A stretch of 64,000 bases of DNA from Desulfobacca acetoxidans DSM 11109. Lineage in GTDB: Bacteria; Desulfobacterota; Desulfobaccia; Desulfobaccales; Desulfobaccaceae. The notes below the pieces were generated by a model that ran no database searches, was not told where the DNA came from, and saw only the letters and a program-made list of their open reading frames with translations. Shown here in pieces: positions 60,993 through 62,564 of the stretch. The position numbers and the translations under genes were made by a program. Location of the stretch: the NCBI RefSeq assembly GCF_000195295.1, contig NC_015388.1, forward strand, positions 2,542,001 through 2,606,000, read 5' to 3'. Position 1 is the stretch's first letter. The number at the start of each line of letters is the position of its first letter.

Positions 60993-62564
60993 ATGCCCCC
61001 GGCACGTCCAAATTCGCAATCTCTTAATCTTTCCCGACTACGCCATAGTTTTTTAACGTTGGTCAATTCTCCGGAGGTCAGTCGCCTCCTTGAAGATATT
61101 ACTACCTGTTCACTCAGTCGCGAAGAAACCCGATTCAGCGGATGGCAAGAACCGCCGTCCAAAGGGGGGGTGGAGTTATTTCCTTTCCTGACAGTTCATA
61201 CCCGACGCCATCGGCTGGAACTTAGCGGCACGCTCTTTCCCAATCAGGAAGAACCGGAAACCGGCGTCCTGTATCACCTGATTAAAATACGCTTAGGGGA
61301 TGAAACCCACTACTTCAACCTGAGCACCTCCCAATCAACCTTTCTGCTATCGCCCTTCCACTGCCGTTTTATCAGTATTATTTTTGGGATAACCTGGTTC
61401 TATACCCTGGCCTTTGAAACCGCAGCAATGCAGCAGGATTTTTTTGCCTTTGCACCGTATTCTTTGGAAGAACAGGTCATTGCCCGATACCTTCAGAGCC
61501 TCGTATGGATCCCCTGCGCCACCGTGCAACTGGATACGCAAGACAACCCCTATATCGGCACCAGGTTGTACACCAGCGCCGATCTAAAACGTTGTGAGAT
61601 TCCCGGAAGCAGCAAGGAAGAGGGTATGATCCGCGGTTGGCGGTTGTTTAAGCGCCTACTGAATTTCTCTATTGAGGGCGAACCCATCTTTACCGGTTTT
61701 GCTTTCCTGCCATCGCACAAGTCCCTAATGCACCACCAGAAACGCTGGTCAGACCTGCTGCTGTATCATGAGGCCGACCAAGTTCCGCTCAATGAAGGCA
61801 TCGAAGCCATCAAGCAACTGCTGCTGAATGCGGATGGGCGCAGCACGTTTCTCTCGGTATATCAAGACCGTATTATCGGTGTGCTGCATCTGACCAAAGG
61901 AACGCAGCAGCAATTGACCACGGTCAGATCCTGGCGCGAATCTCTGCTGTTGGCCACTATCTCCAGGAGAGGCCGCTTTAATTTTTGGCTGGCCCTCAAA
62001 GGACGACAAAACGCCCGCATTCCTCTCTCCCTGTTGGAATACCGTCAGGGCCATATCCAAATCCCCTTGTTTCAGGACGTCTTCTGGCAGGAGTTGGAGC
62101 GTCAGCTGCGTCAGAGCTGTCCCGATTGCAACTATCCGGAAGTTCTGCAACAATTGAAACTGCTCATCCGCGGCATGCGCGCCAACGCCCGGGGAGGCAT
62201 CTTCCTGCTGGGCCTGAATGCAGCCCGATTGCAGGAGCCCTATATCCCCATCGAAAATGAAGTTCGACTGGCCCAGCCGACGCCCTTACAGCATCGTTGG
62301 AGCGCTATCATCCTCGGCCTGGCCAAATCCGACGGGGCCATCATATTTAACGAACGACTGGAGGTAACCCATTTTCGAGTCCGGCTCAAGGCCACCGGTC
62401 TGCAACTGCCCCCCTTGCGGGGTGATGAGTTAGGCAGCGGCACCCGCCATCAAGCCACCCGGGAATTTTCGGCCTTCTGCCCGGAAGTATTGGGTCTGTG
62501 CATCTCCATGGACGGCCCGGTTTCTCTTTACCGCATGGGCAAGTTAATCAGTCGCCTTTATTAA
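60993..62564 (+). CDS. Probable diadenylate cyclase-like protein with large N-terminal sensor region
   Basis: A 523-residue protein whose last about 140 residues look like a DisA_N (DAC) domain. ARGGIFLLG (399-407) fits the early DAC strand. LAKSDGAIIF carries the DGA motif with Asp 447, and GTRHQATREFS carries the nucleotide motif (RHR in known enzymes, RHQ at 485-487 here). The final GPVSLYRMGKLI matches the domain end. DAC enzymes make c-di-AMP from two ATP. The first 370 residues are soluble and unrecognised. ATG 60993 has GGAtGGAA upstream; TTG 60924 is less likely. It lies alone after a terminator. The RHQ change leaves activity uncertain. Confidence 0.7.
   Translation: MPPARPNSQSLNLSRLRHSFLTLVNSPEVSRLLEDITTCSLSREETRFSGWQEPPSKGGVELFPFLTVHTRRHRLELSGTLFPNQEEPETGVLYHLIKIRLGDETHYFNLSTSQSTFLLSPFHCRFISIIFGITWFYTLAFETAAMQQDFFAFAPYSLEEQVIARYLQSLVWIPCATVQLDTQDNPYIGTRLYTSADLKRCEIPGSSKEEGMIRGWRLFKRLLNFSIEGEPIFTGFAFLPSHKSLMHHQKRWSDLLLYHEADQVPLNEGIEAIKQLLLNADGRSTFLSVYQDRIIGVLHLTKGTQQQLTTVRSWRESLLLATISRRGRFNFWLALKGRQNARIPLSLLEYRQGHIQIPLFQDVFWQELERQLRQSCPDCNYPEVLQQLKLLIRGMRANARGGIFLLGLNAARLQEPYIPIENEVRLAQPTPLQHRWSAIILGLAKSDGAIIFNERLEVTHFRVRLKATGLQLPPLRGDELGSGTRHQATREFSAFCPEVLGLCISMDGPVSLYRMGKLISRLY

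Follow-up and report, generated by a model that had tools for sequence, protein, structure and literature searches.

The 523-amino-acid protein encoded by this gene belongs to the diadenylate cyclase (DAC) superfamily: residues ∼370–523 form a DAC domain, an assignment well supported by the agreement of sequence profiles, fold and structural alignment. The explanation that we favor, held as a whole with little better than even confidence, is that of a soluble, sensor-gated and divergent member of the superfamily that makes c-di-AMP. Its gene is an intact open reading frame with an ATG start and 523 codons in the window (the whole 64,000-nucleotide stretch of DNA that was analyzed). The product has no transmembrane-like stretch, the highest 19-residue Kyte-Doolittle mean being 1.45. 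An AF2 model of moderate confidence (pLDDT 73, pTM 0.65) divides the protein into the parts listed in Table 1; residues ∼173–202 are mostly of low confidence in this model and resemble an insertion relative to DACNH.

Table 1. Features of the gene, with window coordinates unless prefixed by a genome handle, and related elements elsewhere
Feature	Position	Strand	Basis or remark
Complete gene of the 523-aa protein, with stop	60993..62564	+	ORF reading
N-terminal domain, residues ∼10–150 (helices, five strands, helix)	61020..61442	+	AF2 model
Middle module, residues ∼151–300, element order like that of Pfam DACNH	61443..61892	+	AF2 model; sequence profiles blind to it
Strand-rich layer and helix ahead of the DAC domain, residues ∼301–378	61893..62126	+	Collinear with DACND-DACNH-DAC model
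DAC (DisA_N) domain, residues ∼379–523 (profile-tested as ∼370–523)	62127..62561	+	Profiles, Foldseek, VIA-align
DGA motif, residues 447–449	62331..62339	+	Invariant, 16 aligned orthologs
G-T-R-H-Q, residues 483–487, counterpart of G-T-R-H-R	62439..62453	+	Ortholog alignment
c-di-AMP riboswitch 1 (L098)	G000:C1:1476953-1477091		Followed by kup-, trkH- and trkA-like genes (by eye)
c-di-AMP riboswitch 2 (L099)	G000:C1:1579365-1579506		Followed by short 3D-domain-like ORF (by eye)
Loci with upstream TRZ/ATZ-type deaminase	L029, L030, L031, L032, L034, L035, L037, L038		
Further loci with upstream TRZ/ATZ-type deaminase	L005, L060, L063, L068, L069, L072, L018		

The C-Terminal Region Is a DAC Domain

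The sole Pfam match of the protein is the DAC family, below the cutoff (E 0.0054; 16.8 bits versus 27). Thirteen of 16 orthologs match the same family, the best with E 4.8e-5. Residues 370–523 align with DACNV-type DACs in hhalign at a probability of 98.4 and E 1e-14 (reversed profile, 0.34), and with DACND-DACNH-DAC proteins at E 3e-8 (reversed profile, 0.19). Up to E 10, the whole protein has no match in NCBIfam or, in single-sequence and profile searches, among PDB chains. Foldseek places the model with DisA/CdaA at a probability of 1.00, and VIA-align, with the AF2 model (pLDDT 73) as query, gives Z scores of 12–16 against 40 DAC entries. The best structural match is DisA of M. tuberculosis (Z 15.9, rmsd of 2.6 across 130 residues). 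A preliminary description of this DNA had proposed a DAC-like C-terminal region with the motif order, spacing and final strand of DAC domains; these results bear out the proposal, and the motifs and final strand fit DAC domains as described. A DAC-family protein is therefore missed by the Pfam DAC cutoff, and DAC counts are too low.

A Glutamine Occupies the Third Position of the RHR Motif

None of D447, G448, A449, R485, H486 and Q487 varies among 16 aligned orthologs that share 50%–75% identity. Around the second motif, 58% of positions 478–496 are invariant, versus 25% for the DAC domain overall. The DGA motif with Asp447 lies where the preliminary description had put it; GTRHQ is also present as it stated, with residue numbers (485–489) that were two too high. 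The canonical RHR form is absent from the aligned orthologs, of which 16 of 16 carry RHQ. Ahead of RHQ, orthologs of the genus have Thr, and those of the sister family have Ile or Met. Synonymous sites are saturated within the genus, and dN/dS is therefore not usable.

Comparable departures from RHR are found in other DACs. DACNV-type DACs of the same phylum carry LGGTRHQSS (L091), LGGMRHQSA (L092) and LGTRHNAG or LGTRHNSG (L087–L089), further DACNV-type DACs of the phylum retain RHR, and DACND-type DACs have RGAR[YF]NSA, with R[YF]N in place of RHR. RHQ, RHN and R[YF]N all occur in sensor-type DACs that retain DGA. Because DACNV-type DACs carry RHQ or RHN and DACND-type DACs R[YF]N, the Gln at the third position is not exceptional, and since DACNV-type DACs also deviate at RHR, a test for RHR is one of canonical form and not of superfamily membership. 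The same comparison weakens the suggestion, made when the Gln was first noticed, that it hints at an altered substrate or inactivity. In Rv3586, replacement of RHR by AAA, all three residues together, abolishes ATP binding and activity (PMC3328451), and in DacA of S. aureus DGA contacts the ribose and the Thr before RHR contacts the phosphates (PMC6368335). In the studies consulted, no mutant altered in the third residue of RHR alone was found.

The Middle of the Protein Resembles a DACNH Module in Its Modeled Order of Elements

Residues 1–370 have no match in Pfam or NCBIfam, and none in Pfam when the search is extended over 16 orthologs. Specifically, no Pfam match to DACND, DACNH or DACNV is found in the 16 orthologs, and DACNV gives no profile signal. 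Comparison of residues 1–378 with DACND, DACNH and DACNV profiles, including predicted secondary structure and reversed controls, is not significant. A second AF2 model, that of the DACND-DACNH-DAC protein L021 (pLDDT 86.5), was used to compare the order of helices and strands. Residues 150–378 follow residues 144–318 of L021 at z 3.3, a value reached by 0 of 120 permutations; the DAC domain, as positive control, gives z 3.9, and the first domain is not distinctive (z 1.7, reached by 10 of 120 permutations). In these AF2 models, the helices and strands of residues ∼150–378 come in the order seen in the DACNH module and β layer of the DACND-DACNH-DAC protein. DACNH and DACNV are weakly related to each other (profile E 7e-4), and the models suggest that a highly diverged DACNH/DACNV-like module probably makes up the middle of the protein.

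A GAF fold was considered for the N-terminal domain and dropped. The GAF-like match of residues 13–146 has a VIA-align Z of 5.5, inside the background range of the tool, and the N-domain of L021 gives similarly weak matches to GAF and MglB (Z 6.1–6.5); no fold is therefore claimed for this domain. The ∼370 N-terminal residues had been called unrecognized at the outset, which holds in that they contain no named domain; they are less alien than that implies, however, given the modeled DACNH-like element order of residues ∼150–378.

Distribution and Comparison with Known DACs

An ortholog is carried by 24 of the 29 genomes in a survey of the order and is absent from five (three of genus g2, two of genus g9). 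Orthologs share 72%–75% identity within the genus and 50%–56% with those of the sister family, and the protein's own genome has one copy. Elsewhere in the phylum, three proteins match in the DAC part only, and Pfam reads them as DACND-DACNH-DAC. Searches of plasmids, viral contigs and a viral fold library gave no convincing match. The DAC domain itself is already known; its combination and lineage here are not recognized by Pfam. The survey “All DACs in a row” (Galperin, 2023) reportedly defines DACND, DACNH, DACNG, DACNV and DACNK. The comparison with published DAC families made here is based on Pfam.

The DACNV-type DACs (PF21751 and PF02457; L091, L092, L087–L089) likewise have a C-terminal DAC domain with DGA and a sensor at the N terminus, and share with the 523-residue protein a G-T/M-RHQ or GTRHN motif and a final ISQDG strand. 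In contrast to them, it has no DACNV domain detectable by sequence and carries ∼150 further residues as an additional domain at the N terminus; it also lacks the long insertions that several DACNV-type proteins have inside the DAC domain. DACND-DACNH-DAC proteins (PF21749, PF21750 and PF02457; L021) are of similar length, with modeled elements that are collinear from residue ∼150 to the C terminus, but they carry RGARYNSA where the present protein has SGTRHQAT, and neither DACND nor DACNH is detected in it by HMM or profile. In two of these R[YF]N-type proteins (L021 and L023), NCBIfam DS2_3 matches the DACNH-DAC part below its cutoff. DisA has an N-terminal DAC domain followed by a linker and an HhH domain. 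Although DisA provides the best structural match, the DAC domain here is C-terminal and runs to the last residue, so the layout is not that of DisA.

Gene Neighborhood and an Upstream Deaminase in the Sister Family

The gene stands by itself, with an RND efflux operon on one side and the genes for Hsp20 and Lon on the other (names assigned by eye from sequence), and Hsp20-Lon also lies downstream in one other genome of the genus (L027/L004). No glmM or YbbR gene is found beside it. The position is an orphan one, as the preliminary description had it, and the CdaA-YbbR pair is elsewhere in the genome. In the sister family, an amidohydrolase/deaminase gene in the same orientation immediately precedes the ortholog at 15 of the 17 loci with a visible flank, a count in which both exceptions come from one genus and one genome is possibly counted twice. 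The encoded amidohydrolase is nearest to the TRZ/ATZ hydrolase and 5′-deoxyadenosine/MTA/SAH deaminase models of NCBIfam, all below cutoff. Several of these loci have a YkuD gene farther upstream, and sometimes a GAF-HD gene too. Such gene order, retained within one family, is weak evidence that the deaminase and the DAC-family protein may be functionally linked. By coordinate, nearly 1.9 Mb separates the gene described here from the closest homolog of the deaminase in the same genome. Of the two copies of the ortholog in genome G195 (L035 and L036), just one has the deaminase upstream.

A Proposed Model for a Probable Sensor-Gated Cyclase

The same genome encodes a canonical CdaA with THDGA and GTRHR (G000:C1:1680782; L002:1381-2184, minus strand) between folP-like and YbbR-like genes, and it contains two riboswitches above the Rfam c-di-AMP threshold. 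It has no Pfam DACNV domain. Because a canonical CdaA and two riboswitches are present, c-di-AMP is probably made and read in this genome, with or without a contribution from the protein described here. CdaA shares the DAC fold, DGA and GTRH with that protein, which lacks the THDGA and RHR forms, membrane helices and YbbR neighbor of CdaA.

In the model that we favor, the DAC domain would bind ATP through DGA at the ribose and T-R-H at the phosphates, and two subunits would pair head to head to produce c-di-AMP. The N-terminal ∼370 residues, made up of a sensor-like domain with five strands, a module like DACNH and a layer of strands, would sense a cytosolic signal and open or block the head-to-head arrangement. 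The product may then join the pool made by CdaA and be read by the two riboswitches, the first of them lying ahead of K+ transport genes. We favor this model because of the profile and fold homology, the invariant motifs, the occurrence of RHQ, RHN and R[YF]N elsewhere, the DACNH-like element order, the presence in most genomes of the order, the riboswitches, and mutants of the DAC of DS-2: DS-2 anti-phage defense needs this DAC, and mutation of its predicted catalytic residues inactivates it (PMC13092281). Counted against the model are the sub-cutoff Pfam score, the change of the third Arg of RHR to Gln and, in the sister family, of Thr to Ile or Met, the supply of c-di-AMP already provided by CdaA, the lack of a DACNH or DACNV profile signal, and the pLDDT of 73. 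On balance, cyclase activity is probably retained. Of the initial proposal of a DAC enzyme or derived cyclase with a regulatory region, the DAC fold, the large N-terminal region and the orphan position stand, and what was read into the Gln is weakened.

The main rival is a pseudo-cyclase that binds ATP or c-di-AMP without cyclization and serves either as a regulator that responds to nucleotides or as a modulating partner of CdaA; we regard it as doubtful but serious. Such a role would fit the absence of the third Arg from every aligned ortholog and, in the sister family, of the Thr before RHQ, together with the sub-cutoff DAC score and the canonical CdaA, and conservation of the pocket is equally expected if it only binds. 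However, D, G, A, R and H are all retained across ∼50% identity, and DACNV-type relatives with RHQ or RHN retain the whole motif set. We consider it unlikely that the orthologs form a DAC lineage peculiar to this order and distinct from the published families, in which the fixed Gln of the phosphate loop and the sensor region yield either a cyclase that makes another product or a receptor dedicated to nucleotides, linked to adenosine-type deamination by a conserved gene pair in the sister family.

A shift in substrate or product, to a linear product or to a dinucleotide that is mixed or lacks adenine, with the Gln re-tuning the phosphate site, appears quite improbable. A Gln fixed across the order at a phosphate-site position could be explained in this way, as could the missing Thr of the sister family, but RHQ also occurs in DACs with other sensors, and the RHR loop contacts the phosphate and not the base, which does not make it an obvious candidate for a specificity switch. 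It is very improbable that the protein is a DAC of CBASS-linked anti-phage defense, as in DS-2: DACND-DACNH-DAC relatives do match DS2_3 below its cutoff and DS-2 does depend on a DAC, but the protein itself has no match in PADLOC or NCBIfam, DS2_3 included, no CBASS genes lie beside the gene in the window, its neighbors are efflux, Hsp20 and Lon genes, and its distribution over the order is not patchy, with none found on plasmids or viral contigs.

Most work on c-di-AMP deals with CdaA and DisA of Gram-positive bacteria. A DAC-family protein that comes second to CdaA, is soluble, bears a sensor and is retained across most of a Gram-negative order offers a tractable case of how DACs are gated. 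The fixed Gln in RHR, common to some DACNV-type proteins, makes the extent to which catalysis needs RHR directly testable.

In the sister-family genomes G218 and G261, a DACNV-type DAC with canonical RHR (L084 and L085) is encoded along with the RHQ ortholog and CdaA.
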